A DNA stretch of 21,488 nucleotides from positions 1 through 21,488 of IMG/VR virus record IMGVR_UViG_3300032006_000109. One strand, written 5' to 3'. Source of the stretch: a virus. Every line of letters begins with the position of its first letter. Within the stretch, counting starts at the first letter, position 1. The position numbers were made by a program, and so were the translations under genes. Under the pieces are notes generated by a model, which made no database searches, had not been told where the DNA came from, and saw only the letters and a program-made list of their open reading frames with translations. Below are positions 814 to 21,475 of the stretch, in pieces.

Positions 814-1830
814 ATGCCAACATTTAGTGATATTGAAACCAGTTACGTCCAGCGTTATGCTTCAGACGTACAGCATATGTTACAGCAAAAGACCACTAGA
901 TTGAGGAATTTTGTTAGCCAGAAACTAGATTGTTCTGGTATTGCAGAATTTATTGATCGAATTGGTGGAGTAACTGCTGAAAACAAAAATGCTCGTTTCG
1001 CAGACTCTCCTGTGCAAGCAATTGCTCATCAAAGGAGAAGAGTAACAGCACGACCTTACCATGCTGGATTTTTTGTAGAAGGATTTGATCAACGTCGTAT
1101 GAATTACGATGTTTTTCAGCCTTATGCAGAAGCTACAAGTATGGCAATGGCTCGTAAAATGGATGAAATCATCGTTGATGCTGCTTTTGGTTCAGCATAT
1201 CAATCAGAAAGTGGAGCAATGGATGGAGCTACAGAAGTAGTATGGTCAACTTCGAGTACTGAGAAAACTTTATCTGGTAAAACTATCGGAGATCAGTTTA
1301 TCGGTGTTCAGTTTGCCTATGGCTCTTCACCAGATGCTAGGACAAAAGGTATGTCAAATGCAGGTGGTGATTATACTTTATCTGTTGATAAACTTCTTCG
1401 TGCAAGACGAATACTTGCTCAGAACGAAGCAGATCAATACGATGAAGGTGGTAATCCATTATATGTCGTTGTATGCTCTCAATCACAGATAGAAGCTCTG
1501 CTTCATTCTCAAGCGATACAGAGTATAGACTATAACAATATTCGTGCATTAGTAGAAGGTGAAACAAACTTTTTTGCAGGTTTTCAGTTTATTAAATATG
1601 AAAATATGCCTACTTATACAGCAGGAATGCAGAATAGTGATACTGGTGAAAAAGTATTAGCTTTCCATCCACAAGGATTGTCTTTGTGTGTATGGATGGA
1701 TCCAGTAACTAAAATTGAACCCCGAGCAGACAAAAGTTTTACACCATATGCATATTTTGAAATGGATATGGGAGCAACTAGAGTCTGGGAGGAAATGGTT
1801 GTTCAAATTGATTGCCTCAAAATGTCCTAA
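814..1830 (+). CDS. Major capsid protein (Phage_capsid_2-like)
   Basis: This 338-residue protein is probably the shell subunit. Residues about 72-125 carry the pattern HQRRRV, then Y..G.FVEGFDQRR, then a helix with MARKMDEIIVDAAFG. This matches what I remember of the Phage_capsid_2 (PF19821) family: an Arg-rich strand, a (V/F)(D/E)..D..R segment, then an R..D..I..A helix. T7 gp10A is close in length (345 residues), but I see no gp10 sequence resemblance, so only the position is T7-like. Position right after the scaffold gene and a strong ribosome binding site (TAAGGAAC, 7 bases before ATG) support a heavily expressed capsid gene. Codon use here is less A/T-biased than in the tail genes downstream. 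There is no obvious slippery heptamer at the 3' end, so there is no sign of a T7-style 10A/10B frameshift. Confidence 0.85.
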   Translation: MPTFSDIETSYVQRYASDVQHMLQQKTTRLRNFVSQKLDCSGIAEFIDRIGGVTAENKNARFADSPVQAIAHQRRRVTARPYHAGFFVEGFDQRRMNYDVFQPYAEATSMAMARKMDEIIVDAAFGSAYQSESGAMDGATEVVWSTSSTEKTLSGKTIGDQFIGVQFAYGSSPDARTKGMSNAGGDYTLSVDKLLRARRILAQNEADQYDEGGNPLYVVVCSQSQIEALLHSQAIQSIDYNNIRALVEGETNFFAGFQFIKYENMPTYTAGMQNSDTGEKVLAFHPQGLSLCVWMDPVTKIEPRADKSFTPYAYFEMDMGATRVWEEMVVQIDCLKMS

Positions 1831-1888
1831 TTATTAGGTTGAGTCCTTTAAGATGAACGCTTAACTTTAATTAATATAAGGAGTTAAT

Positions 1889-2362
1889 ATGGCAAATGTA
1901 TATGGAACCCAACAGACGAAAGCAAATTCTGTACCTATGAAAATGGGCGATGCTCATTCAATGGGTGGTAGAATGCGTGTTTTGTCTGATTCCTATCTTA
2001 TTCCTGCGGCTGGTTCAGTAGCCATTGGAGATGTACTCACTATTGGAGTACTTCCAAAAGGAGCAAGAATATGGGAAGCTCATTTGGGTGTTACTGCCTC
2101 TACAGGTACGGCAAAATTAGCATTAGGTACAATAGTTACAACATCAGCTGGAGTAACTACTACTACTGCGGCGGCACTATTAGCGGCAGTTGTTCATTCT
2201 TCCAACTTCAATCGTAGTATTGAAAGTGGACAAAATGCAACAACAGCGAGTGTAGTGCCACTATCGTATCCTGATGGAGCAACGATTATAGTTACAAACT
2301 CGGTAGCCAAATGGACATCGGGTGAAACTATAACTTGTACGATTAAATATACAATCGATTAA
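1889..2362 (+). CDS. Putative capsid accessory/decoration protein
   Basis: This 157-residue protein is very rich in Ala, Thr, Ser, Gly and Val with few charged residues, a composition typical of small beta-sandwich capsid-surface or head-fibre proteins. It has a short polar N-terminus (MANVYGTQQTKANSVPMKMG), then alternating strands with a low-complexity TTTTAAALLAA segment in the middle, and ends in a strand-like TITCTIKYTID. It has an excellent ribosome binding site (AAGGAG, 1879-1884). It lies between the capsid gene and the tail-tube genes and before a terminator-like hairpin, so it would be co-expressed at high level with the capsid protein. I do not recognise a named family; the function is inferred from position and composition. 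A head-completion role is possible but less likely, because those proteins are usually helical. Confidence 0.6.
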   Translation: MANVYGTQQTKANSVPMKMGDAHSMGGRMRVLSDSYLIPAAGSVAIGDVLTIGVLPKGARIWEAHLGVTASTGTAKLALGTIVTTSAGVTTTTAAALLAAVVHSSNFNRSIESGQNATTASVVPLSYPDGATIIVTNSVAKWTSGETITCTIKYTID

Positions 2363-2369
2363 CCATAAT

Positions 2370-2398
2370 AAGGGGGTGTAGGTAACTATGCCCCTTTT
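2370..2398 (+). terminator. Hairpin with GUAA tetraloop and U-run after the capsid genes
   Basis: AAGGGG (2370-2375) pairs with CCCCTT (2391-2396). After a bulged G2376, UG/UG wobble pairs and UAG/CUA (2379-2381 with 2386-2388) close a GUAA tetraloop (2382-2385). The stem runs into TTTT (2395-2398). The shape fits an intrinsic terminator, or a stability hairpin that attenuates transcription between the highly expressed capsid genes and the tail genes. T7 has its T-phi terminator at the equivalent place after gene 10. The U-run is short, so termination would be partial, as needed for the tail genes to be read through. The ribosome binding site of the next gene (GAGGA, 2403-2407) begins just after it. 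Confidence 0.55.
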
Positions 2399-2411
2399 CT
2401 AAAGAGGAAAT

Positions 2412-3044
2412 ATGAATCGAGTAAGTATTGCAAACCTGGCGTTATCAAATCTTGGTGAAGCACCAATACAAAACTTAACAGATGATAATGCAAGAGCAAG
2501 AATTGCAAATTCCAGAATTGATGATGTTATTCGTGGAGTATTACGGATGCATGATTGGAATTCAGCAATGAAAAGAGTTGCATTAGTTAAAATAGGAGAA
2601 CCTTTATTTGGATTTAATACCACTTTCCAATTACCAGCAGATTTCATAAAAATAATAGAAGTATGGCCTATATCAAGATATAGAATTCAAGGAGATACAG
2701 TTTTATCAAATGAAGATACATTGAGTATATTATATGTTGCAGAACCTATTGATGTAAATACATTAGATGTTTTACTTGGAGAAGCAATAGCATTAAAATT
2801 AGCAGTCGAAATATCTGAGACATTAACAGGGAAAGATGGATTAAAAGAAAGAATGATGCAGAAATGGGTAATACAATTACAAGAAGCTCGATCTGCAAAT
2901 TCTAAAGATAAGACTCCAGAGCATAGAGAAGATTCAACTTTTTGGAATGCAAAACGTAGACATGCTACTCCTGTTCATAGGACATTTAATCATCCAACAG
3001 CAGGGAGTGCAGTACTAAATAACTTTACGCCTCCAGAATCATAA
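2412..3044 (+). CDS. Tail tubular protein A (T7 gp11-like, tail adaptor/gatekeeper)
   Basis: This 210-residue protein is close to T7 gp11 (196 residues). It opens with the family signature IANLALSNLGEAPIQNLTDD, followed by a helix ending MHDWNSAMKR, then FQLPADFIKIIEVWP and a strand pair ending LSILYVAEP. A C-terminal helical part (LGEAIALKLAVEI onward) follows, and the end is a charged tail with HREDSTFWNAKR. In T7, twelve copies form the ring that joins the portal to the nozzle. Here it sits directly before the nozzle gene with a one-base stop/start overlap, suggesting coupled translation. The start is set by GAGGA 4 bases upstream. Family assignment is by motif and gene order and is strong. 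Confidence 0.88.
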   Translation: MNRVSIANLALSNLGEAPIQNLTDDNARARIANSRIDDVIRGVLRMHDWNSAMKRVALVKIGEPLFGFNTTFQLPADFIKIIEVWPISRYRIQGDTVLSNEDTLSILYVAEPIDVNTLDVLLGEAIALKLAVEISETLTGKDGLKERMMQKWVIQLQEARSANSKDKTPEHREDSTFWNAKRRHATPVHRTFNHPTAGSAVLNNFTPPES

Positions 3045-6000
3045 TGCCCACATTTGAATTTCAGCAACCAAGATTTACTGAAGGTGTATTAGCAAAAAGT
3101 CTTCATGGTCGATCTACTGAAGAGTTTTATGCTTATGGTGTCCATGATGCCGAAAATATGATTCCTTTGCTTGAAGGACCGATGGTGAAGCGTCCTGGTA
3201 CAATATTTGTTTCAGAAGGTCAAACAACTAAGTCAAGATTAATACCTTTTTACAAAGGTGGTACTGAAGCATATGTAATTGAAATAGGATATAATGAATC
3301 AGCCACAGATGATACGTTTGATTGTACATTTGCAAATAACTCTTCAACTGTATCTGCTTCTTCAGCAAATATTGATAAACTCTCTATAGGACAACATTTC
3401 TGGCAAAATACTGAAGCTGGGGGATGGCAGATAGCAACAAGATCAGCATATCCATCTTCAGATACAAGTGCAACTGTAGTATCAATTGATACATCAGCAA
3501 ATACTTTTGTTATGTCTGAGACTGCAACAGGCACAGGTGCAAGATCATGCACATTTAGTAATAAACCTTATATCAGGATTTTTTCTCAAGATAAATTATT
3601 AGATAAAGCAGGAGCATCAGGAACACCTTATGTAATTAAATCTCATAGGTGGTTTACAAGTCTAGCTAATGGTATAGATGAAATAAGTAATTTAAGTTGG
3701 ACTCAAAGTGGTGACGTTTTATTTTTTACTTGTCCAACAAGAAAACCATTTTTATTAACTCGTACTATTGATGAAACAGAAAGTCTTGTAAGAGCAGAAG
3801 ATAATTCAGTATGGACAATGAGTGATTATGTACAAGAAGATGGTCCTTATGAAAATCCTAATGCTGATCCTGATAAGGCTTTTGTTGCATTAAAGAGTGT
3901 TAACTCAAGTTTAGAAGTTAATGATGAAATAGCATTTGTACAATTTGACCCTGATAACAATGTTGTTATATTAGCAAATCATGGCTTACAAGTTGGACAA
4001 AAAATAAATTTATATGTAGATGCATTAACAGATAATACACAAATTATTATTAAAAATGGCATTGCAAATCCTGGAACAGACGCTTGTCTCGGAGGATATA
4101 AAGTTGATGGCTCAGTAAATAGTCCTACTCAAAATAATTATTTTTATGTAGTTTATGCAACATCTGTATCTTTCCAAGTTTCAAATATTCCAAATGGTCC
4201 TGCATGGGACATAGCGTATCAAGATAAAGATAATAGTGGTACAGCAGGAGATCAATTTACTGGAGAAATAAAATTATATAGAAGAATTTATGAACGAGGA
4301 TCTACAATTTCAATAGATTCTAAGTATAGATATAGTACAAACCCTGATAATTGGGCAAGTTCAAGTTCAACTGTAGGCAATAATGGTTATGGAGGGAAAG
4401 TATTTACTACTGATGATATAGGAAGACATATTCGTGTTAACCCAATTGCTGATACCACTACAAGAAGAGGTGGTATAAGATGGGCATGGGGTAGAATTGT
4501 TGGTAGAACATCCGAGTCAAGAATAACTGTTAAACTGGAAACAGATTGTTCAGTATATTCCGATGATGGACATGATACTAATGGTGCAGAAGCAGGATCA
4601 AGTGAATGGAGACTAGGTTCATTTAGTGGGGGATGGGATTATTCTGATTTAACAAATCCATTTACAGGTAATGGGTATCCAAAAATATCTCAAATTTATC
4701 AACAAAGATTATGTTTTGCAACTACAGCAGTAGAACCTTCAACTGTATGGTTGTCACGATCTGGTAACTTTTATAATTTTGCTCCTACAGAATTAGGAGT
4801 TCAAGATTCACCTTTAGTTTTAACAGCAGGAGTCACAACAGAAGTTATTAGTTCTTCAAATGGATTATATTTTACTATTGATTCAGATACCCTTGATGAA
4901 ATTTTATGGTTATTAGATTCTAAAAGACTTGCTTTAGGAACATCAGCAGGAGTTTATTTCTTATATGGATCTGAAACAAATCTTACAGTTACACCTAGTA
5001 GATTTACAATTAATAGAGAAACATCTTATTCTGCTACTGATGTCGAGCCTGTAGTTGTATCAAATGTAATTATATATCCTCAACGTGGAGGGAGAGAAAT
5101 TCAAGAATTGGAGTTCTCAGGTTCAGAAGATCAATGGTTGCAAACTAGAATATCTATGAAAGCATATGATATTATTTCGACTAGTAGCATAATAAAATTA
5201 GCATGGCAGGAAAGACCAAATCCAATAATATGGATGGTCATGGATAATGGGAAAGTCTTGTCATTAAGTTATGATAGACAAGTAAAGTTTAAAGCATGGT
5301 CAGTTCATTCTTTTGGAGGAACAGATACAAAAGTAACAGATATTGCAATTATTCCAAGAACAAAATATGATCAAGTTTGGCTACAAATATCTAGAACAAT
5401 AAATGGTGCGACAAAATCATATATTGAACGATTAAATAGGTTCCCATCAGAAAATGTTATTGATCGAAATGAATTAGTTTTTTTAGATTCTGCAAAAATA
5501 CATAAGAATACAGATTTAATTACAGGTAGTCCAGTTGTTAAAGGAGCAAGTCAGAGTACTTCTCAAAATACTCTTATTGTAAAAGGAGCTTCAACAGCAC
5601 CTTCTGCTGGAACAAGGTTTGTAATTGCAGGAGATGCAACAATATATGCTGTAAATTCTGCAACTACACCTGCGGATCCTGGAGATGGGGTAGCAACAAC
5701 GTCAACATGGACATTAGATAGAAATTTAGTTGCATCACCAGCAAATGAAGCAGTAATAGAATTACGATTAGAAGAATTAACAATTTCTCATCTAGAAGGG
5801 CAGTCTGTTGGATTATGTACTAATGGAATGGAACATGCCAATAAAACAGTATCAAGTGCAAAGATCACATTAGATCATGCATTATCAACAACAGTAGTGT
5901 CAGGATTATTTTATAATGCATCTATGACAACTCTTAGTCCACCAACATTAGAAAATCAATATAACTGGAATAAAAGATTATTAACATTAACAGCATTAAT

Positions 6001-12004: not shown

Positions 12005-14430
12005 TGGCTACATGTAGACAAGATGCATTAAATAATGGATTAGATGAATTAACTGTAGACAAGTTAATGGGGAAATTAGAAGTTTCTCAAAAAAGTTCTA
12101 AAGATTTGATCCAGGAATTGATGGAAGAGCAAACACAAAAGAACTTTATGGAACGATCTAATGCCGTTAACAAGAACAGGGGGAAAAGATTTATTGATAA
12201 TGCAAAAATAACAGGAGAAAAATATAAACGACCTTATAGACGTTATTGGAACTATTTTTTTGATGATAAAAATTCTGTTGGTGTTCGTATTGGATCAAGA
12301 ATACAAAGAAGATTAGCTGATATACAAGCAGAATTAAATATTCCATTGCATGATTTTTTTACACGAATTGAAGGAAGTTTAATAAGAGGAGATGCTAATA
12401 GAGGATTTAGAGATTCATTTATCAAAGAAATGATGTCTGAAGGTGATACAATGGTGTCAACAGATAAACTTGCTTTCCAATTTGCACAAGCAGTAAAAAG
12501 ACAACAGGCAATTCAAGTATCAGAATCACGAAAATATGGTTCAGGTTTATATTTTAAAAAAGGATGGGTAACATCACAATGGCATGATGCTATTAGAATA
12601 AGAGCAACATCAAAAGAAGTATGGATAGATGATATAATAGACTCTATTGATATTGCAAAAATGAAAGATAATATTGAGATGGCACATCCAGAATTTGATA
12701 TGAGACAAGGGAAGTTTGATACAAAAAAATATTTGGGTGAAGTGTATGATGCCATAACTGATCCAGAACTTAGTGGTAAAGGTGTTATTCTAGAAAATAT
12801 TAAAAGAATGAGAATTCTAGAATTCAAAGATTCAAAGCATTTATTAAAATATAATGATAAATATGGTCATGAAAATTTAGCACATGCAATTTTTCAAAAT
12901 ATGGATTCAATGGATCATTTCTTAGAAATAGGAATGGTAATGGGTTATGGTCATAAAGAAAAACACATATTAAAGACATTTAAAGAAGGAGGACCTAAAA
13001 ATTTTGTAAAGATATTTGATCCTATATCAGATTTGAGAGCATTATGGGCAGATCTTAAATATAAAAATAAATTAACTAATAGAGAACATAATAAATTATT
13101 GGCAGGACTAAGAGAATTAGTTGGGGATCATATGCTTGAGGGGAATCCTCGAATGTCTCAGTTAACAACAGGATTTATTGCACAACAAGCTATGGCTAAA
13201 CTAGGAAAAGCTGTATTTGGTGCAATGGCAGACTTAGGAAGTGCAGGTATTGTTCTACATCATCATGGAATTAGACCAGATAAAGGTTATTATGGTATGG
13301 TTCAAAATATGATTAAGATGCATACAAATAAATTAAATCCATTAGAACAAAAATTAGTTCATCAAGCATTGGGTACTGGTCAAGATGGCATGCTATCAAG
13401 TCATTATAGTAGATTTATAGGTAAATGGTCTGATAAAGCTGGGAAATTATCTAAAATGGCAAATCATTTCTTTTGGATGAATGGGTTAATAGGATGGACA
13501 AATACAGCAAGAACAGCATTTTCGATTATGTCTTCTAATCAAATGGCAAATTCTTTGAAAGGATCATGGGAGAATTTAGGTAAAAATCAAAGAAAATTAT
13601 ATTCAGATTATGGGTTAACAAAAGATGATTGGGGAGAATTACAAAAAATAGGTAGTTTTAATGCAAGATTATGGAATCCTGATGCTCATACGTTAGAAAA
13701 TTATATAACAAGAGATTGGATTATTGAACAAGGAGGAAAAGCCTCATTAGCAACAAAGTTAGATAATTTTTTCATCCAAGAATCTAGATCAGCAGTGCCA
13801 GAAGCAAAGATTGCAGATAGAATTCATATGTATGGCAATCATGATCCTGGAAGTTTTTTTGATGTTACACGAAAATTAGCTGGCATGTTTCGAACATATC
13901 AGTTACAACAGGTAAAGACATTATATCCAAGAGTTAAGGAATTAGGATTACCAGCTATTGTTCATGCATTACCAATATTAACTATAGGATATACATCAGT
14001 AGTGCTAAAGAATTTGGTAGCAGGTAAGACTCCACCAGCTTTTGATGATCCTCAATTGTTTATTGATGTCGCTGTTGGAAGTGGATTTGCACCTCTTGTT
14101 GGGGATTATCTTTCTGGAGAATATGGAAGATATAATCATACATGGGATGAGGCAGTAGGAGGTCCAGCTTATAGCCAATTCAAAGATTGGGGGAAATTAT
14201 GGGTAGGTTTAGTAAGTGGTGATAAAGGTGCATCAGATGTATTTAAATCAATAAGATATAATACACCATTTGCTAATTTGTTTTATACTGAAGCAGTCGT
14301 GAATTATGGGCTTCTTTATGGAACAATGGAATCTTTAAGTCCAGGTTATCTTGCACGTATCGAGGCACAGGCACAAGGTAGAGGATCACCTTTTATTTTT
14401 GAACCTAGTAATCTTTACGGAGGAATATAA
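12004..14430 (+). CDS. Internal virion protein, gp16-like C-terminal segment
   Basis: This 808-residue protein has gp16-like landmarks. Residues 397-423 read MAKLGKAVFGAMADLG then HHHGI, like the 'KLGGAV.SSLGDL' helix of internal core proteins. Residues 619-640 read FDVTRKLAGMFRTYQLQQVK, like the T7-type 'R.LLRLFTQFKSFPL' segment. Residues 649-674 form a hydrophobic helix (PAIVHALPILTIGYTSVVL) that could span a membrane. In T7, gp16 crosses the inner membrane and drives the first step of genome entry. The N-terminal 120 residues are charged and helical. The start shares a base with the previous stop and has AAGGAAAT upstream; its end shares a base with the fibre start after a strong GGAGGA. 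No lytic transglycosylase motif is visible, so peptidoglycan cleavage during entry must come from elsewhere if it occurs. Confidence 0.78.
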   Translation: MATCRQDALNNGLDELTVDKLMGKLEVSQKSSKDLIQELMEEQTQKNFMERSNAVNKNRGKRFIDNAKITGEKYKRPYRRYWNYFFDDKNSVGVRIGSRIQRRLADIQAELNIPLHDFFTRIEGSLIRGDANRGFRDSFIKEMMSEGDTMVSTDKLAFQFAQAVKRQQAIQVSESRKYGSGLYFKKGWVTSQWHDAIRIRATSKEVWIDDIIDSIDIAKMKDNIEMAHPEFDMRQGKFDTKKYLGEVYDAITDPELSGKGVILENIKRMRILEFKDSKHLLKYNDKYGHENLAHAIFQNMDSMDHFLEIGMVMGYGHKEKHILKTFKEGGPKNFVKIFDPISDLRALWADLKYKNKLTNREHNKLLAGLRELVGDHMLEGNPRMSQLTTGFIAQQAMAKLGKAVFGAMADLGSAGIVLHHHGIRPDKGYYGMVQNMIKMHTNKLNPLEQKLVHQALGTGQDGMLSSHYSRFIGKWSDKAGKLSKMANHFFWMNGLIGWTNTARTAFSIMSSNQMANSLKGSWENLGKNQRKLYSDYGLTKDDWGELQKIGSFNARLWNPDAHTLENYITRDWIIEQGGKASLATKLDNFFIQESRSAVPEAKIADRIHMYGNHDPGSFFDVTRKLAGMFRTYQLQQVKTLYPRVKELGLPAIVHALPILTIGYTSVVLKNLVAGKTPPAFDDPQLFIDVAVGSGFAPLVGDYLSGEYGRYNHTWDEAVGGPAYSQFKDWGKLWVGLVSGDKGASDVFKSIRYNTPFANLFYTEAVVNYGLLYGTMESLSPGYLARIEAQAQGRGSPFIFEPSNLYGGI

Positions 14431-16121
14431 TGCTAACTTCCACAGTTAACACATTTGAAGTGGCATCTGCATCGGCAGATTCATATACTTTTAATTATGC
14501 TATCCACAAAGCAACAGATCTAAAAGTATATATTGATGGTACAATAACTGCTTCAAATGATTCGACAAATCCTTTTACTACTACTGTTGCCGCTAATAAA
14601 CAATCTGCTAGTGTTGCTTTTACAAATACAGGGAATTCTGCTCCTCACAGATCTAAAGCATTAAAATTTGAAAGAGTTGTTGAATATAAACAAGAAACGG
14701 ATCTTGCAAACAACTCGCTTCTTGATGCTGAATCATTAGAAACATCACTTGATAATATAGTGATGCAGACACAACAAGCAGGAATTAAAGCTGAAACATC
14801 TTTAGGGTTTGATGTTGGTATCCCTGCTAGTGATTATCATACAACTGCTGTTCAAGCATCTACATTAAATGTTCAAAAATCTAATAGAGCTAATAAAGCA
14901 TTAGCTTTTGATGCGAATGGTGATTTAACTGTATCAACAGATCCTATTGATGCCCAAATTGCCACTGTTACTACTAAAGCTACAGAAGCGGCAGGGTCAG
15001 CAACGGCGGCGGCAAATTCGGCTTCAGATGCGGCAGATGACTTAGCAGAATTAAAAGGCATCTATAGAGGCGCACAGACAGCAACTCCGTCTAATCCTCA
15101 AGATGGACATTTATGGTTTGATACTAATACTGGTGTAAACGTAGTTAAAGTTTATAATGCTGATACTTCTGGATGGGAACAATTAACTCCAAGTGCAACA
15201 GAACAAACACAAATTAACACATTAACTCTAGGTAAAGATGGTACTGTAAGTCAAAGTGGAACAAATCTTAATATTGTTCAAGTTGATAAAGTTGCAGATG
15301 ATATTGCAAATGTTAACACAGTAGCAGGAATTCAAGCTAATGTTACTACAGTCGCAGGAATATCAAGTAATGTTACTTCGGTAGCAAATGATGCAACAGA
15401 TATAGGAAAAGTTGCAGGAAAAGAAACAGAAATAGGATTGTTAGGTGCTTTAGATACAGAAATCGGGCTATTAGGTACATCAGCAATGGCTCACGCTTCA
15501 ACAGGGCATCTTAAAAAATTATCAGATGTTAATGCTCATATTACTACATTAGGTCCAATATCAGCAGATATTACTGCAACAGCAGGAGCAACTACTGAAA
15601 TGGATACAATTGTTAATAAATATGATGGAGGAACGTCTGGAAGTGGAACTAATAAAAATCTTGCACTAATTAATAGTGTTCATGGTAAAATAACAGAAGT
15701 TGGACGATTAGGCACAGCTGATGCAGTCGCAGATTTAGCAATTTTAGGAACAACTGATGCTGTTGCTGATATGAATACATTATCAGCAGATCCAATTCCA
15801 GCTAATATGGCTACTGTTGCAGGTATTGCTTCAAATGTTACTACTGTGGCAGGTATTAGTGCTAATGTAACAACTGTTGCTGGAGTACATGCAAATGTTA
15901 CAACTGTAGCAAATAGTATTGCAGATGTTAATAGATATGCAAATGAATATAAAATTGCATCGTCTGCTCCTGGTTCACCAAGTGAAGGTGATATGTGGAG
16001 TGATACCACTAATAAAATTTTTAAAGTATATAATGGAACAGCATGGGCAACAGTAACAGACGGAGTGAGTGCTGAAGAAGCAAATGCTTCGGCTATATCT
16101 ATGGCAATCGCATTGGGCTAG
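14430..16121 (+). CDS. Tail fibre with T7 gp17-type N-terminal domain
   Basis: Residues 1-150 of this 563-residue protein fit the phage T7 tail-fibre N-terminal domain that docks the fibre to the nozzle. A beta sandwich includes YTFNYAIHKATDLKVYIDG, followed by ERVVEYKQETDLANNSLLDA and a helix LETSLDNIVMQTQQAG. A short Ala-rich helix (about 170-205) leads to the module DGHLWFDTNTGVNVVKVYNA (residues 212-255). A decapeptide array (294-320), a spacer with shorter repeats (TEIGLLGALD), a second decapeptide array (459-495) and a second EGDMWSDTTNKIFKVYNGTA module (511-548) follow. The protein ends in a short helix without a large receptor-binding head, so the distal tip may be supplied by the small proteins encoded downstream. 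It overlaps the preceding gene by one base. Confidence 0.85.
   Translation: MLTSTVNTFEVASASADSYTFNYAIHKATDLKVYIDGTITASNDSTNPFTTTVAANKQSASVAFTNTGNSAPHRSKALKFERVVEYKQETDLANNSLLDAESLETSLDNIVMQTQQAGIKAETSLGFDVGIPASDYHTTAVQASTLNVQKSNRANKALAFDANGDLTVSTDPIDAQIATVTTKATEAAGSATAAANSASDAADDLAELKGIYRGAQTATPSNPQDGHLWFDTNTGVNVVKVYNADTSGWEQLTPSATEQTQINTLTLGKDGTVSQSGTNLNIVQVDKVADDIANVNTVAGIQANVTTVAGISSNVTSVANDATDIGKVAGKETEIGLLGALDTEIGLLGTSAMAHASTGHLKKLSDVNAHITTLGPISADITATAGATTEMDTIVNKYDGGTSGSGTNKNLALINSVHGKITEVGRLGTADAVADLAILGTTDAVADMNTLSADPIPANMATVAGIASNVTTVAGISANVTTVAGVHANVTTVANSIADVNRYANEYKIASSAPGSPSEGDMWSDTTNKIFKVYNGTAWATVTDGVSAEEANASAISMAIALG
15306..15389 (+). repeat. Decapeptide repeat array 1 in the tail fibre
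   Basis: Three consecutive 30-base units encode the consensus A-N-V-T-T-V-A-G-I-x. Asn falls at residues 294, 304 and 314, an exact 10-residue spacing. The DNA copies have drifted at third positions, so the repeat is old or under protein-level selection. Such repeats are expected to form an elongated trimeric fibre shaft. Confidence 0.75.
15801..15914 (+). repeat. Decapeptide repeat array 2 in the tail fibre
   Basis: Four 30-base units encode the same ANVTTVAGI-type consensus as the first array, with Asn at residues 459, 469, 479 and 489. The first unit is degenerate (ANMATVAGIA). The array ends just before the second YNGTAW-type module. Confidence 0.8.
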
Positions 16122-16139
16122 TAACTATTAAGGGAAATT

Positions 16140-16475
16140 ATGGCAAATACATTTATTCGTAAAACCCATCGTGAGATAGGGAATACATTAACTCAGATTG
16201 ATTCATATGCAGTAGGAGGTTCTGCAAAAGCAACTGTTATAGGATTATCTGTTTCAAATACATCAGCTTCTTCTGTAGATGTAGATGTAACATTAAATGA
16301 TGGAAGTAATGATTTTTATTTGATTAAAAATTGTCCCCTACCATCAGGATCGACAGTTGTGGTCGTGGGAGGAGATCAAAAACTTGTTTTAGAGCCAAAT
16401 GATTTAATAAAAGCAAGAAGTAGCTCAAATACAAATAAAATTGATGTAGTAATGAGTATATTGGAGATAACATAA
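16140..16475 (+). CDS. Small beta-sandwich virion protein
   Basis: This 111-residue protein has a short basic start (MANTFIRKTHREIGNTLTQI) and then a regular succession of strands: KATVIGLSVSNTSASSVDVD, VTLNDGSNDFYLIKN, LPSGSTVVVV, KLVLEPNDLIKARSS and KIDVVMSILE. The pattern is that of a compact beta sandwich and resembles small structural proteins that sit beside fibre genes in marine phages, as far as I can recall; I cannot name a family. It lies between the main fibre and the adhesin array, with an AGGGAA ribosome binding site and a one-base overlap with the next start. A fibre-attachment or decoration role is inference. Confidence 0.6.
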   Translation: MANTFIRKTHREIGNTLTQIDSYAVGGSAKATVIGLSVSNTSASSVDVDVTLNDGSNDFYLIKNCPLPSGSTVVVVGGDQKLVLEPNDLIKARSSSNTNKIDVVMSILEIT

Positions 16476-17290
16476 TGGGATACTTAGGAACATCACCCCC
16501 AAATAGAACATTAACAAGTGCAGATATAGATGAAGGTGCAGTAACACTTAACGATATTAGTTTTACTGACCAGCCTACAAATCTTAATCTTATTGGTACA
16601 TATGATAAACACACCATGAGATTAGCAGATGGAGTTACAGTAACAGGTGATGTAACGATTTCAGATAACCTTATACTCTCTAAACTATCAGATGATGGGA
16701 ATGCCATAACCCTGACTAATGATACTTCAACTAGAACTATAACTGGAACAGGAAGTCTTGAGGCTAGTACACTTTCACAAACTCCAAATGCCTCACTAAC
16801 TGGAATGACTGGAGAATTAGGTGCTGGAGTTACAGGTGCTAATTCATTTGATCTTGTTAATAAACCTAGTTTTAGGGCTACACATTCTGGTGCATTATCA
16901 GTTAATAATGAAACGTGGACAGGTTTTGGGAATAAAGCAGAAATGAATGCAGGTAATTGTTATGATGGTTCAACATATAAATTCACACCAAATGAAGCAG
17001 GATGGTATTGGCTACATTGTCAAATAACATTCGATGACATAGGTGATGGGAAAAATTTATCAGCAGGAATTTTTAAAAATGCCACATCTGGTTCACCTGA
17101 AGCAACTAGAGATATGAGAGTTGGGTCAGCATCAGGGGCAAAAGGCATAAATGTATCAACGATAGAGTATGCAAATGGAACTACTGATTATTTTTATTTT
17201 GCAGGATACCATGCTCATGGTTCAGCAAGGAATGTAATAGGAAATAATTACTCAATTACAATGGGCTTTAAGTTAGCAATAGGAGTATAA
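16475..17290 (+). CDS. Tail fibre/adhesin with C1q-like C-terminal domain
   Basis: Residues 1-35 of this 271-residue protein (MGYLGTSPPNRTLTSADIDE, then GAVTLNDISF) resemble N-terminal anchors of marine phage fibre proteins. Residues 50-125 are Thr-rich beta repeats (GVTVTGDVTISDNLILSKL). Residues 130-271 match the C1q/TNF-like jelly-roll pattern: KPSFRATHSG, a W/F strand, NCYDGSTYKFTPNEAGWYWL, then a strand with IFKNATSG, and a final YSITMGFKLA strand. C1q-like domains trimerise and often bind receptors, so this is a good candidate receptor-binding tip. The start overlaps the previous stop by one base (TAATG), as does the next gene's start. Confidence 0.75.
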   Translation: MGYLGTSPPNRTLTSADIDEGAVTLNDISFTDQPTNLNLIGTYDKHTMRLADGVTVTGDVTISDNLILSKLSDDGNAITLTNDTSTRTITGTGSLEASTLSQTPNASLTGMTGELGAGVTGANSFDLVNKPSFRATHSGALSVNNETWTGFGNKAEMNAGNCYDGSTYKFTPNEAGWYWLHCQITFDDIGDGKNLSAGIFKNATSGSPEATRDMRVGSASGAKGINVSTIEYANGTTDYFYFAGYHAHGSARNVIGNNYSITMGFKLAIGV

Positions 17291-17388
17291 TGCCAGACCT
17301 AATAATAAAACCAACAGCAACAAGTGGTAATAAATTAATCCTAAAGGATCAAGCAAATAATGCAGTTCTAACGACTTCTGATTCTGGC
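17290..17388 (+). repeat. Anchor-tag repeat, copy 1
   Basis: This encodes the 33-residue N-terminal tag with core IKPTA..GNKLI.KDQA, matched by the copy starting at 18171 (25 of 33 residues identical). The DNA is clearly diverged, so the copies result from an old duplication or independent acquisition. Confidence 0.7.
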
Positions 17389-17871
17389 GTTTCTCATTTA
17401 TCTACTCCTGCAGGCCATATTTTGCAAGTTGTAAACTCGCATAACAGAGGGACTGGTTCAGGAAACTATGTCGCACATAGCGGTGCTTGGACATCGACTG
17501 AATTGTCTGCAACGATCACATTAAAACAGGCAAATGCTAAAGTGTTTATTTCTTATAGTCAGTCAGTAGAATTTTATGGTACTAACGAAAGTGGTATCTC
17601 TATTAAGTGTTTTGGCAATTTGGCGAGTGCTGGTGATGTAGCGATTGAAGAAACTGAAGTAGGTATAAATGTTAGATGGAGTTACAGTTCTATAAATTAT
17701 GTTGATCAAGCTGTATGTTCAGGCCACGTTGAAACATTATCCAATTCTGCTGGTCAGGCATGGGTCGTTACAGTAAAAGGATATGAACATTCAGATTCCA
17801 CATATACTCATCTAGATACCCTTGGTAATACTAGAGCCTCGAATCTTACTTTAATGGAGATAGCTGTATGA
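17290..17871 (+). CDS. Small fibre/adhesin protein with IKPTA-type N-terminal anchor
   Basis: This 193-residue protein is all-beta in character. Residues 1-33 form a tag (IKPTATSGNKLILKDQANNA, then VLTTSD) shared at 25 of 33 positions with the protein starting at 18171. The rest begins HILQVVNSHNRG and continues WTSTELSATITLKQANAKVF. This is a 'lsatIt....akv' beta domain familiar to me from phage fibre C-termini, and it ends NLTLMEIAV. The tag probably anchors the protein to the tail while the C-terminal domain varies. CpG dinucleotides are frequent here (13 counted in 582 bases) compared with some neighbours. The gene shares four bases with the next small gene (ATGA), so the two are probably translated as a pair. 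Confidence 0.65.
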   Translation: MPDLIIKPTATSGNKLILKDQANNAVLTTSDSGVSHLSTPAGHILQVVNSHNRGTGSGNYVAHSGAWTSTELSATITLKQANAKVFISYSQSVEFYGTNESGISIKCFGNLASAGDVAIEETEVGINVRWSYSSINYVDQAVCSGHVETLSNSAGQAWVVTVKGYEHSDSTYTHLDTLGNTRASNLTLMEIAV

Positions 17872-18167
17872 TGAAACCTAAAATAATTGATGCAATAAGA
17901 GAATTGGTTGGTGGTAGAGTTAGTGGTCCTGTTGATTCATATAAGCCAAACTTATGGGACGGTCAAAAATTACCTAGTAAATCTAAAATAGATTCTAAAC
18001 TAGCCGATCTCGTAACCGATTGGGGTAAAAAAGAATATATAATGAAAAGGGAAATAGCCTATCCTCCAATCGGAGATCAGCTAGATGACCTCTATCATAA
18101 AGGTGCTTTCTCTACTGAGATGGCAACTAAACTTAAAAAAGTAAAGGATGATTTTCCAAAAGGATAA
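17868..18167 (+). CDS. Small helical tail-assembly-chaperone-like protein, copy 1
   Basis: The N-terminal half of this 99-residue protein carries DAIRELVGG and DGQKLP (residues 8-16 and 31-36). These align without gaps with the protein starting at 21140. Its C-terminal half (KREIAYPPIGDQLDDLY, then a helix ending VKDDFPKG) has the 'R..AYP.IGDQLD.LY...KYPK' pattern of small phage proteins found next to fibre genes. It resembles the C-terminus of the protein starting at 18778. Such proteins are thought to help fold or assemble fibres; I infer that role from association only. Two adjacent ATGs are possible starts (17868 and 17871); GGAG (17855-17858) is better spaced for the first. Confidence 0.6.
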   Translation: MMKPKIIDAIRELVGGRVSGPVDSYKPNLWDGQKLPSKSKIDSKLADLVTDWGKKEYIMKREIAYPPIGDQLDDLYHKGAFSTEMATKLKKVKDDFPKG

Positions 18168-18170
18168 ACT

Positions 18171-18269
18171 ATGGCAGACTTTTCAATAAAACCTACAGCA
18201 GGTACAGGTAATAAACTTATAATAAAAGATCAGGCAGGAAATGCTGTTTTAACTACATCAGATGCAGGA
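18171..18269 (+). repeat. Anchor-tag repeat, copy 2
   Basis: This is the second copy of the 33-residue IKPTA..GNKLI.KDQA tag, fused to a C-terminal domain unlike that of copy 1. Confidence 0.7.
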
Positions 18270-18773
18270 GCAACTTTAGCAAGTAATATAACATTTGATG
18301 ATGCCCATAAAGATATTGATATAGATGTTGACTCATGGGATTTACTATTGGAACAGAATCACGATTTAAGTAGTGATACAATCATAGATTATAATTGGAC
18401 ACATAAATTAGGTAGTAATTGTACTGAAACAGGAGGAGTTGTTACAGTTTCAAAAGCAGGTTGGTATTTTGTAACTACATCTGCTGGTCAACATGCACAA
18501 CAAAGCCAACAAATTGATATAAAATTTCAAATATCTGATCCATCAGGTTCAGCAGGTAATACAAGTTATGTACAACAACCAGGGAGATTATTGGTGACTG
18601 ATCCAGATGCAGGTGAAGGCTATGGGTTAAGATCAATGTCATGGTTGGTTTATTTGAGAGCAACAGATAAGTGTTGTATGAAAGGTACTGGTCATTTATA
18701 TGGAAATACAAATAGTGTTGCTACAGAAATTAATGCAACAAATAGATTTCTTGGATTTAGAGTAGGAGCATAA
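18171..18773 (+). CDS. Small fibre/adhesin protein with IKPTA-type N-terminal anchor, second copy
   Basis: Residues 1-33 of this 200-residue protein repeat the IKPTAGTGNKLIIKDQAGNA tag of the protein at 17290. The C-terminal domain is different: after DIDIDVDSWDLLLEQNHDL, strands lead to VVTVSKAGWYFVTTSAGQ, a jelly-roll-like strand pair (compare NEAGWYWL in the C1q-like protein at 16475), and the end is NRFLGFRVGA. I infer a C1q-like or related beta-sandwich head. Cys is present at five positions, including the pair in DKCCMKG, which is unusual in this set. The base composition is extreme: I find only one CpG in the gene, in contrast to the tag-sharing gene upstream. The ribosome binding site is AAAAGGA. 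Confidence 0.62.
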   Translation: MADFSIKPTAGTGNKLIIKDQAGNAVLTTSDAGATLASNITFDDAHKDIDIDVDSWDLLLEQNHDLSSDTIIDYNWTHKLGSNCTETGGVVTVSKAGWYFVTTSAGQHAQQSQQIDIKFQISDPSGSAGNTSYVQQPGRLLVTDPDAGEGYGLRSMSWLVYLRATDKCCMKGTGHLYGNTNSVATEINATNRFLGFRVGA

Positions 18774-18777
18774 AATT

Positions 18778-19083
18778 ATGGAAGAAACAAAATTTTTTAT
18801 TTCAGCAGTACAATCGTTAGCAAAAGGTAAATATGATATGTGTTCTGAAGATGGCACAGTTAAATGGAAAGATGATGCAACTGATTTGCCAACAGATAAA
18901 CAACTTGAAACAGAACGAAAACGCCTGGAAGAAGAATATAAATCATTAGCATATTCCAGATCTAGAAAAGCTGAATATCCCAGCATAGAATCTCTTGTGG
19001 TAGCATTATATGATACAGATGATAAGTCTGCTATTGAAGCAAAAAGAGCAGAAATTAAAAAGAAATACCCTAAACCAGAGTAA
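18778..19083 (+). CDS. Small helical tail-assembly-chaperone-like protein, copy 2
   Basis: This 101-residue protein is charged and helical. The N-terminal half (FFISAVQSLAKGKYDMCSED, then VKWKDDATDLPTDKQLE) follows the same order as copies 1 and 3: a helix, a Gly turn, DG, a W or Y strand, then P(T/S) and a helix. The C-terminal half reads SRKAEYPSIESLVVALY and a helix ending IKKKYPKPE. It matches the AYPPIGDQLDDLY...VKDDFPKG half of copy 1 but not that of copy 3. It sits directly after the second anchor-tagged adhesin, as copy 1 sits after the first. A role as fibre-assembly chaperone is inference from association. AGGAG lies about 10 bases before the ATG. Confidence 0.58.
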   Translation: MEETKFFISAVQSLAKGKYDMCSEDGTVKWKDDATDLPTDKQLETERKRLEEEYKSLAYSRSRKAEYPSIESLVVALYDTDDKSAIEAKRAEIKKKYPKPE

Positions 19084-19086
19084 CAC

Positions 19087-19644
19087 ATGTACATAGGAAA
19101 TAATTTATCAACAGGAAGAAGTGAGACATATGTAAAAACTGCTTCTGGAAGTGAAACTTCAGTAACAACTTCTGATGATGGAAGATTAATAAACTATACA
19201 GTAGGATGGGTTAAGGTTTGGCTTAATGGTGTACTTCTTGTAAATGGTACTGATTATACAGCTACCTCTGGTTCTTCTATTACAGGGTTATCTGCTTTAA
19301 CTGCCAATGATATTTTAACTATTGAAGCTACTCATACATTTAGTTCTAGTGATGCAGTTCCAGCAACAGGAGGAACATTTACAGGACCAGTTACATTTGA
19401 AGGTGTTACAACTACTATCGAAAGTGTGACACTTACAGTAGATGATAAAAATATAGAGATGGGTTCTGTTGATTCCCCTACAGACACAACGGCAGATGGA
19501 GGTGGCATTACTCTAAAGGGTACTACAGATAAGACTCTACAATGGTCAAACACAACTAAATCATGGGAGATAACTCCTAAACTACAACAGAAAGGGCAAT
19601 TTATGAAGTATTCAACACACCAATCTTGGGTATTAGGAGGATAG
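19087..19644 (+). CDS. Small tail fibre protein with two beta modules
   Basis: In this 185-residue protein, the start MYIGNNLSTGRSE is an N-terminal type I associate with phage fibres. Residues about 35-80 contain GWVKVWLNGVLLVNGTDYTA and ITGLSALTANDILTIEA, the 'vNGv.L..gtDYta..g..It.l.al..gD.l.i.a' module found repeatedly in phage fibres and tail proteins. After a GGTFTGPVTFEG linker, residues 115-165 carry LTVDDKNIEMGSVDSP, then GGGITLKGTTDKTLQWSNTT. This is a module often preceding fibre tips in marine myoviruses. The end is short (STHQSWVLGG). The ribosome binding site is weak (only a GAG 8 bases upstream), so translation may depend on coupling to the previous gene, whose stop lies 3 bases before. 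Confidence 0.7.
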   Translation: MYIGNNLSTGRSETYVKTASGSETSVTTSDDGRLINYTVGWVKVWLNGVLLVNGTDYTATSGSSITGLSALTANDILTIEATHTFSSSDAVPATGGTFTGPVTFEGVTTTIESVTLTVDDKNIEMGSVDSPTDTTADGGGITLKGTTDKTLQWSNTTKSWEITPKLQQKGQFMKYSTHQSWVLGG

Positions 19645-19645
19645 T

Positions 19646-20086
19646 ATGGCAATCAGTCGGGGAGCAGGAACAGAAATAATTCGATCTGCATCATTTGAAC
19701 AAGTAGAAAGTACTGCACAGACATTAATTCAAGGTGTTCAACATCATATTTATACAGTTTTATCAATTATCTTCTTTAATACAGGAGGTACTGATAATGG
19801 TACGTTACAACTTATAGGCTATGATTCTTATGCAGGAACAACGGCACAAGAGTTTAACTTGGTTAATGTTGAATGTGCCGCAGGTTCAACCTTTGTATGG
19901 AATGATAAGTTTTCTTTTAATGGATATGAACCAACAGACTTCACTGGTGCAATGAATGCGGCAGATGACCAAGATGCAATCGCAGATCAAGGATCGAGTG
20001 TTGCCCAATATTTAAAGTTTTTTTCGACTTCAAATAGTACAGGGTGGGATATTCATATAACTTACATTGACCAGAACAACGCATAG
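19646..20086 (+). CDS. Small virion structural/adhesin protein (MAISRGAGTEIIRS type)
   Basis: This 146-residue protein begins MAISRGAGTEIIRSASFEQV, a start I recognise as recurring in small structural proteins of marine phages, followed by LIQGVQHHIYTVLSIIFF. The rest is a beta-rich domain (GTLQLIGYDSYAG, FVWNDKFSFNGYEP) ending WDIHITYIDQNNA. The probable role is a trimeric fibre or tail-decoration subunit; I cannot name a fold. GGAGG directly upstream (19637-19641) gives a strong ribosome binding site, and the previous stop is one base away. CpG is more frequent here (about ten) than in the two genes before it. Confidence 0.6.
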   Translation: MAISRGAGTEIIRSASFEQVESTAQTLIQGVQHHIYTVLSIIFFNTGGTDNGTLQLIGYDSYAGTTAQEFNLVNVECAAGSTFVWNDKFSFNGYEPTDFTGAMNAADDQDAIADQGSSVAQYLKFFSTSNSTGWDIHITYIDQNNA

Positions 20087-20095
20087 GAGACTAAT

Positions 20096-20530
20096 ATGAG
20101 TGGAGTTATTGGAGGAATAGGAAGTAAATCTGGAATCATAGGTAGTACTGAAGTCGAATATAAATCGGGATCATACACACCAGATTGTATCTTGGATTCA
20201 GCGGCAAATAATAAAGGTGTATATACAAAAATTGGTGATTTTGTTTTCGCAACAGTAGATATGGATTCAGCCAGTTCTAGTAACGGTAACACTCAAGGTA
20301 TTAATCAATTACCATTCGTACCTTATTCTGAATCAGGAGTGTCAGCAGGAGGAGGCGTAAATACTATATCTGGAAAGCATTGCGGAACAATGACGCTACA
20401 AATACCGCCTCAAGGTGATTATGCGTACTACCGTTCAGGTCATAATTCTGAACCACATAACTCAGGGCGAAGTGGAAGCGATATGAGTAATGTGGGATTT
20501 GAAGGTTTTATATGTTACATATCAAAATAA
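20096..20530 (+). CDS. Small fibre/adhesin protein with Gly-rich anchor
   Basis: Residues 1-16 of this 144-residue protein (MSGVIGGIGSKSGIIG) form a Gly-rich tag. It is followed by EYKSGSYTPD and a GVYTKIGDFVFATVDMD strand pair, matching the 'Y..GtytP...(G/Y)...Y.KIG..V.....' domain common in phage fibre tips. The middle is Gly/Ser-rich (SGVSAGGGVNTISG) and the C-terminus has many His, Ser and Gly residues (RSGHNSEPHNSGRSGSDMSN) before a final strand FEGFICYISK. A receptor-contact loop there is possible but unproven. This gene has the densest CpG content in the array (about 15 in 435 bases). The ribosome binding site is AGGAG. Confidence 0.6.
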   Translation: MSGVIGGIGSKSGIIGSTEVEYKSGSYTPDCILDSAANNKGVYTKIGDFVFATVDMDSASSSNGNTQGINQLPFVPYSESGVSAGGGVNTISGKHCGTMTLQIPPQGDYAYYRSGHNSEPHNSGRSGSDMSNVGFEGFICYISK

Positions 20531-20540
20531 GGAATAACTT

Positions 20541-21143
20541 ATGACAAGATCAAGAGATATAGCCAATTTAGGAACACAAGCAGGATCAGGTCTAGATGCC
20601 TCTGATATAACAACTGGAACTATGGGTGCTGTAACTTTAGGAAGTACAGTAGTCTTTCCTTCAGGAAAAATAGTAAATGTATTCCGATATACAGATACTT
20701 CTGGAAATGTGAATACCACAGCGAATAATAGTACACCAACTATAGCTCATACACCCATGAGTTTTTCTGCTACTAGTGGGAGACATTACCTAATATTTGG
20801 TTGTCAACAATTAATAACTTCAAATGAATCTGGTTCAAATTTTACAACAAGAAAATTGTCTCATGGTTTGTATTGGGGAACAACATCTAGATCGGCATCT
20901 GATACTACTGTTGATACTAAAATTTATTATGGTGAAATTGGACGAACACAAAGTTCAAATTCAACAGCAGGATATCCACAGTATATAAGACAGAGTTATC
21001 AAGGATATTTCACAGCAGGGTCAACAGCAACACATTATGTTTATACAACTATTAATAATGCATCTTCAGATAATTTAAAAAATTATGCTGATAATGACGC
21101 TGCTTCACCACATATAATAACTGTTTACGAGGTAATGCCATGA
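20541..21143 (+). CDS. Small tail fibre/adhesin protein (MTRSRDIANLG type)
   Basis: The N-terminus of this 200-residue protein is MTRSRDIANLGTQAGSGLDA, then SDITTGTMGAVTLGST and VVFPSGKIVNVF, a recurrent marine-phage fibre start. This region is an anchor plus a short shaft. The C-terminal 140 residues form a beta domain (TPMSFSATSGRHYLIFGCQQ, FTTRKLSHGLYWG, TAGSTATHYVYTTINNAS) ending PHIITVYEVMP. That end has the same style as the NLTLMEIAV end of the protein at 17290, suggesting related jelly-roll heads. The ribosome binding site is AAGGAA. Its stop overlaps the next start by four bases (ATGA), pairing it with the third chaperone-like gene. Confidence 0.68.
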   Translation: MTRSRDIANLGTQAGSGLDASDITTGTMGAVTLGSTVVFPSGKIVNVFRYTDTSGNVNTTANNSTPTIAHTPMSFSATSGRHYLIFGCQQLITSNESGSNFTTRKLSHGLYWGTTSRSASDTTVDTKIYYGEIGRTQSSNSTAGYPQYIRQSYQGYFTAGSTATHYVYTTINNASSDNLKNYADNDAASPHIITVYEVMP

Positions 21144-21475
21144 GTATAACTAGATTTGATGCAATTCATAGCCTAGTTGGAGGACAATTAGCAGGTGATC
21201 CTGATGGTAAAAAAATCAATTATATTGATGGACAGAAACCTCCTACTGAAAAAGCTATTACTGATGAAATTGCAAATTTAGAAGTTTCAACAAAATGGGA
21301 GGATATTAGAAGATATAGAAATAACGATCTAGCTTCTTCAGATTGGACGATTCTGGATGATTCCCCTTTAGCTAGTTCAAAGAAGCTGGAGTGGCAAGTT
21401 TATCGACAGAAACTTAGAGATATACCTAAAGATAATGACGATCCTGATAATATTGAATGGCCGACGAAACCATAA
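21140..21475 (+). CDS. Tail assembly chaperone-like protein, copy 3 (Phage_tail_APC-like C-terminus)
   Basis: The N-terminal half of this 111-residue protein has DAIHSLVGG and DGQKPP (residues 7-15 and 30-35), aligned without gaps to copy 1 at 17868. The C-terminal half differs from copies 1 and 2: RRYRNNDLASSDWTILDDSP, then a helix with WQVYRQKLRDIP, then IEWPTKP. This is the pattern of Phage_tail_APC (PF16778), a family annotated as tail assembly chaperones in fibre regions. It probably assists folding or attachment of the adhesin encoded just before it, with which it overlaps by four bases. GAGG (21129-21132) serves as ribosome binding site. Confidence 0.72.
   Translation: MSITRFDAIHSLVGGQLAGDPDGKKINYIDGQKPPTEKAITDEIANLEVSTKWEDIRRYRNNDLASSDWTILDDSPLASSKKLEWQVYRQKLRDIPKDNDDPDNIEWPTKP

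Follow-up and report, generated by a model that had tools for sequence, protein, structure and literature searches.

Gene layout behind the fibre

We analysed a linear 21.5-kb virus contig (IMG/VR virus record IMGVR_UViG_3300032006_000109, positions 1 to 21,488; the whole stretch of 21,488 nucleotides is called the window). Behind its fibre gene this marine phage appears to carry a row of small, swappable host-binding proteins, several of which come with a small helper that probably folds that one head. The window contains a podovirus structural module of capsid (PF19821), tail tubes and internal proteins, followed by the fibre, F. From F to the contig end there is a dense run of open reading frames (ORFs), all on the same strand, and the reading frames of the array are all intact. 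The features are as follows (aa, amino acids; nt, nucleotides; HMM, hidden Markov model).

14430–16121, + strand: fibre F, 563 aa, no head, C-terminal tag ..SISMAIALG (PHROG 21412 tail fiber protein, E = 1e-18)
16140–16475, + strand: vsp, a 111-aa beta-type virion structural protein, proposed cap or hub; follows a tagged gene
16475–17290, + strand: A1, slot-1 adhesin, 271 aa, with a conserved N-terminal ~120 aa and a variable, probably C1q-like head; no chaperone here
17290–17871, + strand: A2, slot-2 adhesin, 193 aa, predicted TNF-like head
17868–18167, + strand: c1, 99-aa helical protein, proposed chaperone of the A2 head; 4-nt overlap (PHROG 9114, E = 2e-14)
18171–18773, + strand: A3, slot-3 adhesin, 200 aa
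18778–19083, + strand: c2, 101 aa, proposed chaperone of the A3 head; 4-nt gap (PHROG 9114, E = 2e-14)
19087–19644, + strand: A4, slot 4, 185 aa, conserved, tag ..HQSWVLGG; probably scaffold
19646–20086, + strand: A5, slot 5, 146 aa, vsp family (member by the vsp HMM); probably scaffold or hub
20096–20530, + strand: A6, slot-6 adhesin, 144 aa, anchor SGVIGGIGSKSGIIG; no chaperone here
20541–21143, + strand: A7, slot-7 adhesin, 200 aa, anchor TRSRDIANLG
21140–21475, + strand: c3, 111-aa fibre-assembly chaperone, presumably of the A7 head; 4-nt overlap (PF16778, E = 4e-19; PHROG 4912, E = 1e-19)

An earlier note on this DNA had described a fibre without an obvious head, six small beta-rich adhesins with at least five types of N-terminal anchor, and three interleaved small helical proteins. 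F has indeed no evident head and ends in ..NASAISMAIALG. The beta-type ORFs of the interval 16475–21143 number seven rather than six (A1 to A7, starting at 16475, 17290, 18171, 19087, 19646, 20096 and 20541) and have six N-terminal types, the motif ..IKPTAxxGNKLIxKDQA.. being common to A2 and A3; vsp is an eighth member, just outside 16475–21475. An adhesin role suits A1, A2, A3, A6 and A7, but A4 and A5 are probably structural. The three small ORFs each lie immediately 3′ of a beta-type ORF, at the positions first described, and two of them, c1 (17868/17871) and c3 (21140/21143), overlap it by four bases.

T7, against which the locus had been set, was rejected as a yardstick: the tail-tube-B and internal proteins match the pelagiphages HTVC203P, HTVC035P and Skadi (HTVC010P-type) and VP5/phiVC8-type podoviruses at ~21–31%. 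Comparable arrays are present in the cultured phages HTVC010P, HTVC035P, HTVC019P and HMO-2011. The contig ends 13 bases past c3, and the array may therefore continue beyond it.

Slot order and exchange of heads

Slot classes were assigned from the N-terminus alone in 18 loci of the window's type. The order F–vsp–1–2–3–4–5–6–7 was kept throughout these loci, with 164 ordered pairs in agreement and 1 in violation, and individual slots were absent here and there. Slot 7 stood ahead of slot 4 in four contigs of a different phage type. Within slots the anchors were alike and the heads were not (0.87 vs. 0.05 in slot 2); the A1 anchor, for example, matches other loci at 74–92% and the A6 anchor is conserved between loci, while the heads they carry differ. 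Heads were also common to different slots. The A3 head shares 74.5% identity, over 161 aa, with the protein in slot 1 of the related contig L190, and a scan with this head returned no contig besides L190, which was already known. Shared descent would likewise preserve order, and the telling point is that order and anchors persist and heads turn over.

The comparison of cassette presence, order and swapping across contigs, suggested in the earlier note as a check, thus gave a fixed order with swapped heads. The multi-adhesin, multi-chaperone, exchangeable locus envisaged there was supported by the family of c3, by the joint movement of heads and small proteins and by the predicted TNF-like fold of A2; its units do not, however, look like freely exchangeable whole cassettes. 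The exchanged unit would be a head plus the N-terminal half (N-half) of its chaperone, with the anchors as slots in fixed order.

Pairing of heads and small proteins was examined in 134 non-redundant small proteins, taken from phage records and related viral contigs, whose upstream genes were complete. The distance to the upstream gene was at most 60 nt for all 134. Overlaps of 4 nt were present with the upstream gene in 43/134 and with the downstream gene in 9/127 (Fisher p = 3e-7), and in 100/933 other neighbouring pairs (p = 1e-9 against the upstream figure), both p-values being optimistic because the loci are related to one another and were collected in part through their homology to c1 and vsp. 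Similarity between small proteins correlated with similarity between upstream heads (r = 0.50, rising to 0.56 for the N-half; n = 134) and far less with the upstream anchor (0.21), the downstream anchor (0.21) or the downstream head (0.16). Where heads were alike and anchors different (21 pairs), small-protein similarity was 0.66, compared to an overall background of 0.11–0.17. Where anchors were alike and heads different (90 pairs), the N-half fell to 0.18 (background 0.11), and the C-terminal half (C-half), at 0.44, was partly conserved. A nearest-neighbour version of the test was uninformative (21/134 for the head, 21/134 for the anchor). No natural adhesin-chaperone fusion was seen, the longest small-family match being 189 aa. 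The small proteins are thus encoded directly behind a fibre or adhesin gene, as Tfa is, and, as in Tfa, their variable N-terminal part appears to be matched to the cognate head.

The best argument for a common role of the three small proteins comes from the A7 head. Used as the sole query, it led to one new contig, L215, where the A7 head (43%) is joined to a slot-1 anchor. The next gene overlaps it by 4 nt and encodes a small protein with a C-half of the c1/c2 type and an N-half that shares 59% identity with the c3 N-half. In L020 the A7 head (58–61%) is carried by a slot-4-type anchor, and the gene behind it encodes a c3 of 95% identity. One head is accordingly known under three anchors, with the same chaperone N-half every time and either type of C-half, which argues that c1 and c2 share the function of c3. 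Divergence of the two partners was not in step: between the window and L020 the head is 61% identical (synonymous divergence, dS, 0.84; ratio of nonsynonymous to synonymous divergence, dN/dS, 0.41), and c3 is 95% identical (dS 0.40, dN/dS 0.10).

Families and folds of the array proteins

By its profile match to PF16778, c3 is a tail-fibre-assembly chaperone. It further matches PHROG 8716 and PHROG 188, the latter being matched over the same C-terminal end by the control Mu Tfa; PF02413 gave E = 0.83, and the profile of c3 relatives aligned weakly with Mu Tfa when the two were compared directly. PHROG 9114, to which c1 and c2 belong, is a family of unknown function. Profiles seeded with c1 and with c2 retrieved essentially one set of ~118 small proteins, which the iterated c3 profile reaches too, and a hybrid small protein of HMO-2011 combines an N-part of PHROG 9114 with a C-part of fibre-assembly type. 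We propose that c1 and c2, tied to c3 by homology, position and interchangeability, work like Tfa and are not themselves members of PF16778 or PF02413. The AlphaFold2 model of c1 (mean predicted local distance difference test, pLDDT, 96) agrees with the helical nature assigned to the small proteins at first reading, with predicted helices at residues 6–14, 38–64, 68–78 and 83–95 and a short hairpin; its viral Foldseek matches are unnamed phage proteins. Recent tandem duplication was rejected as the source of the small proteins (same-locus pair similarity 0.156, background 0.173).

A second small family of 73–77 aa (..KIEVVxEYKHxQIREITDSG.., PHROG 6228, unknown function) lies behind slot-6 adhesins in several loci (L023 5384–5617, L215 7178–7411, L021 4837–5058), and is possibly another type of chaperone.

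Structure prediction of the adhesins, also suggested in the earlier note, was productive for A2. Its model is all-beta (mean pLDDT 76), and Foldseek placed it with the TNF-like lectins BC2L-C and PLTL (template modelling score, normalised to the target, 0.75). Of the 66 members of the A2 head family, 52 fall in PHROG 6942, tail fiber protein; the family also matches the C-terminal end of the solved 658-aa orf22 of 9efk (18 chains; E = 8e-30), an entry on which an open-access literature search found nothing. A2, the adhesin that was modelled, has a predicted TNF-like jelly-roll head. The head of A1 is probably C1q-like, with a weak match (E = 0.006). Iterated HMMs for the heads of A1, A3, A4 and A6 drifted, the A6 profile losing A6 itself, and were left unused.

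Two other adhesin arrangements were observed. Contigs L117, L118, L124, L129, L131 and similar ones of HMO-2011 type carry tandem triplets of TNF-like heads with 4-nt overlaps between them, on three different anchors (STLHVENLKG, SILKVDTINEKTSGNG and SSILKVDTIQ), and one small protein behind. Giant adhesins of 874–930 aa, 44–47% alike, occur in L022 (5526–8150), L025 (7877–10528) and L191 (from 4641), in slot 7 in two loci and in slot 1 in one, each with a small protein of the c3-containing family behind it.

A4 and A5 differ from the adhesins. Across loci a small-family gene was found behind slot 4 in 0/15 and behind slot 5 in 0/9 cases, and A4 is conserved through its C-terminus. Since they never precede a small-family gene, the A4 C-terminus is conserved and A5 belongs to the vsp family, both are probably scaffold or structural proteins, not adhesins. 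The vsp family itself has homologues in 41 phage records, annotated in many of them as "virion structural protein". The window contains two pairs of a protein with a hydrophobic C-terminal tag and a following vsp-family gene, F (..SISMAIALG) with vsp and A4 (..HQSWVLGG) with A5. In the contigs a tag-type end was found on the gene preceding 84/114 vsp-family genes, compared to 2/156 small-family genes and 24/1855 other genes. In eight cultured phages of different hosts, found through vsp alone, the gene before the vsp homologue ended in ..IALG, ..IAL or ..VALG in 8/8. These data suggest that the vsp-family protein caps the tag or offers it a docking site. In other contigs a protein ending in ..QMILGD precedes another vsp-family gene. 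Tagged genes ahead of vsp-family genes were noted in the window (14430–16475 and 19087–20086) and in L218–L225.

Proposed mechanism, alternatives and known systems

The locus is real, and is an ordered variant of known multi-adhesin host-recognition modules. We consider it likely that it works as a whole as an ordered-slot multi-adhesin host-recognition device with head-specific chaperones. A1, A2, A3, A6 and A7 would be short adhesins, presumably trimeric, each with a conserved N-terminal anchor and an exchangeable C-terminal head. Proteins c1, c2 and c3 would be intermolecular chaperones of Tfa type, with each gene placed right behind that of its client adhesin; the variable N-half would recognise and bind the head of that client and the C-half, in two interchangeable sequence types, would perform a generic assembly step. 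New specificity would arise when phages swap a head together with a chaperone N-half; one junction would fall within the conserved anchor and the other within or behind the chaperone, leaving anchors and slot order fixed. F–vsp and A4–A5 would be structural pairs in which a tagged protein is followed by a vsp-family protein, a probable cap or a hub for neighbouring adhesins. More tentatively, and with doubt outweighing expectation, the array may be a plug-in board on which vsp-family hubs hold ordered docking slots by clipping onto the tags (..AIALG, ..WVLGG), each slot taking whichever head is supplied together with its chaperone N-half, and one virion displaying at least five different adhesins at once.

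Several points weigh against the proposed device, besides the optimism of the p-values given above. Neither c1 nor c2 directly matched any chaperone family in the Pfam and PHROG searches, and the c1 model had no Foldseek match in the PDB at E ≤ 0.001. L190 has an A3-type head without a small protein behind it, so the pairing is not absolute; in the window A1 and A6 have no small protein, and the HMO-2011-type contigs have three TNF-like heads to one small protein.

The small proteins could instead stay on the mature adhesins as lasting tip or cap subunits, like T4-type gp38 or the Tfa retained in the Mu virion, and not released chaperones. Their pairing with the head itself would fit this explanation, and Mu Tfa is reported to stay in the virion, whereas Pam3 gp25 is not (PMC9608196). 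We regard it as unlikely, in that c3 comes from an assembly-chaperone family and is more conserved than the head between the window and L020 (95% vs. 61%, dN/dS 0.10 vs. 0.41), which is not what a tip facing the receptor would show; one protein could fill both roles. It would similarly surprise us if the array served mostly as a collection of heads for recombination onto one or two working fibres, with only part of the adhesins assembled on a virion. Movement of heads between slots is observed, slot loss is common, and L021 lacks vsp to slot 3, its fibre being fused to an A4-like end. However, conserved anchors in a fixed order in every locus would be needless for a store of spare heads, and all reading frames are intact.

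We give little credence to the explanation that heads and small proteins travel together only as neighbours in a mosaic region, with no functional match between them: any mosaic genome passes on adjoining stretches jointly and the small-protein C-half correlates with the downstream side too (0.50–0.60), but the downstream gene is equally close and correlates far less, the N-half stays with its head though the C-half is of another type (L215), and the translational-coupling overlap is one-sided. Equally improbable is a single linear fibre of A1–A7, each joined to the previous one in the style of the T4 long tail fibre and not forming separate branches, which would suit the colinear, fixed order and the tagged C-termini ahead of partner genes; a chain would not easily tolerate the absence of slots without disturbance of the rest, and most members end in a head, not a connector.

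The device with head-specific chaperones has relatives among known systems. In Mu Tfa and Pam3 gp25 a variable N-domain sits on the fibre head and a conserved helical C-domain serves assembly (PMC9608196), a two-domain logic matched by the head-tracking N-half and partly conserved C-half described here. As in Pam3 gp24–gp25 and Mu fibre–Tfa, the fibre gene stands immediately before a two-domain chaperone, and the Pam3 head is TNF-like (PMC9608196). Those phages have one fibre and one chaperone, whereas at least three pairs lie in series here; c1 is also smaller and, in its predicted model, mostly helical and without the beta-sandwich N-domain, and there are two alternative C-half types. Ackermannviridae (CBA120, S117) build branched complexes of several receptor-binding proteins with conserved N-terminal docking parts and exchangeable C-terminal receptor-binding domains, encoded in one cluster (PMC11414711); conserved anchors and variable heads are likewise grouped in one cluster here. 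Their tailspikes are large, with XD/gp10-like domains and no reported intermolecular chaperones (PMC11414711), in contrast to the short adhesins, 10–120-aa anchors, cognate chaperones and tag–vsp pairs of our locus; a Pfam search of the array ORFs (144–271 aa) found no XD (gp10-like) domain. Fibre–chaperone pairs move between marine phages (PMC10579305), and the Alteromonas A5/V22 modules are alike in that a fibre and its cognate chaperone are common to distant marine phages; there, one pair per phage is highlighted, with a DUF4376-type chaperone (PMC10579305).

Closest in setting are the metaviromic islands of HTVC010P-related marine phages, described as variable C1q, lectin, XkdW and fibre-assembly genes beside the fibre (PMC3909814), and the hypervariable host-recognition clusters of pelagimyophages (PMC7029224). 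A hypervariable fibre-adjacent region and a conserved N-terminus with a variable C1q head are common to these and the window. The parts of the two reports compared here describe variability, not slot order, head–chaperone pairing or a tag–vsp signature. An open-access literature search found nothing on slot order or the tag. As far as the literature was compared, the fixed slot order, the exchange unit of head and chaperone N-half with interchangeable C-halves, and the tag–vsp signature are new.

Pelagiphages, with their relatives, belong to the most abundant marine viruses, and most proteins behind their fibre are annotated as hypothetical. Our reading gives PHROG 9114 and its relatives a testable role as fibre-head chaperones, and offers a sequence rule for head–chaperone pairing together with a map of anchor, head, chaperone N-half and chaperone C-half. 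The tag-plus-vsp signature is conserved in phages of many hosts. If it is true that several adhesins share one virion, the way host range is read from such genomes would change.

Two relatives of the window differ at the start of the array. In L021, a close relative (77% in an internal protein), the C-terminus of the fibre (1631–3973) matches A4 and vsp to slot 3 are absent, as if lost through an in-frame deletion. In L010, with 68% identity in the neighbouring internal protein, a tryptophan halogenase gene (14904–16061; PF04820, E = 4e-34) follows right after the fibre, at the position where vsp and the array start in the window.

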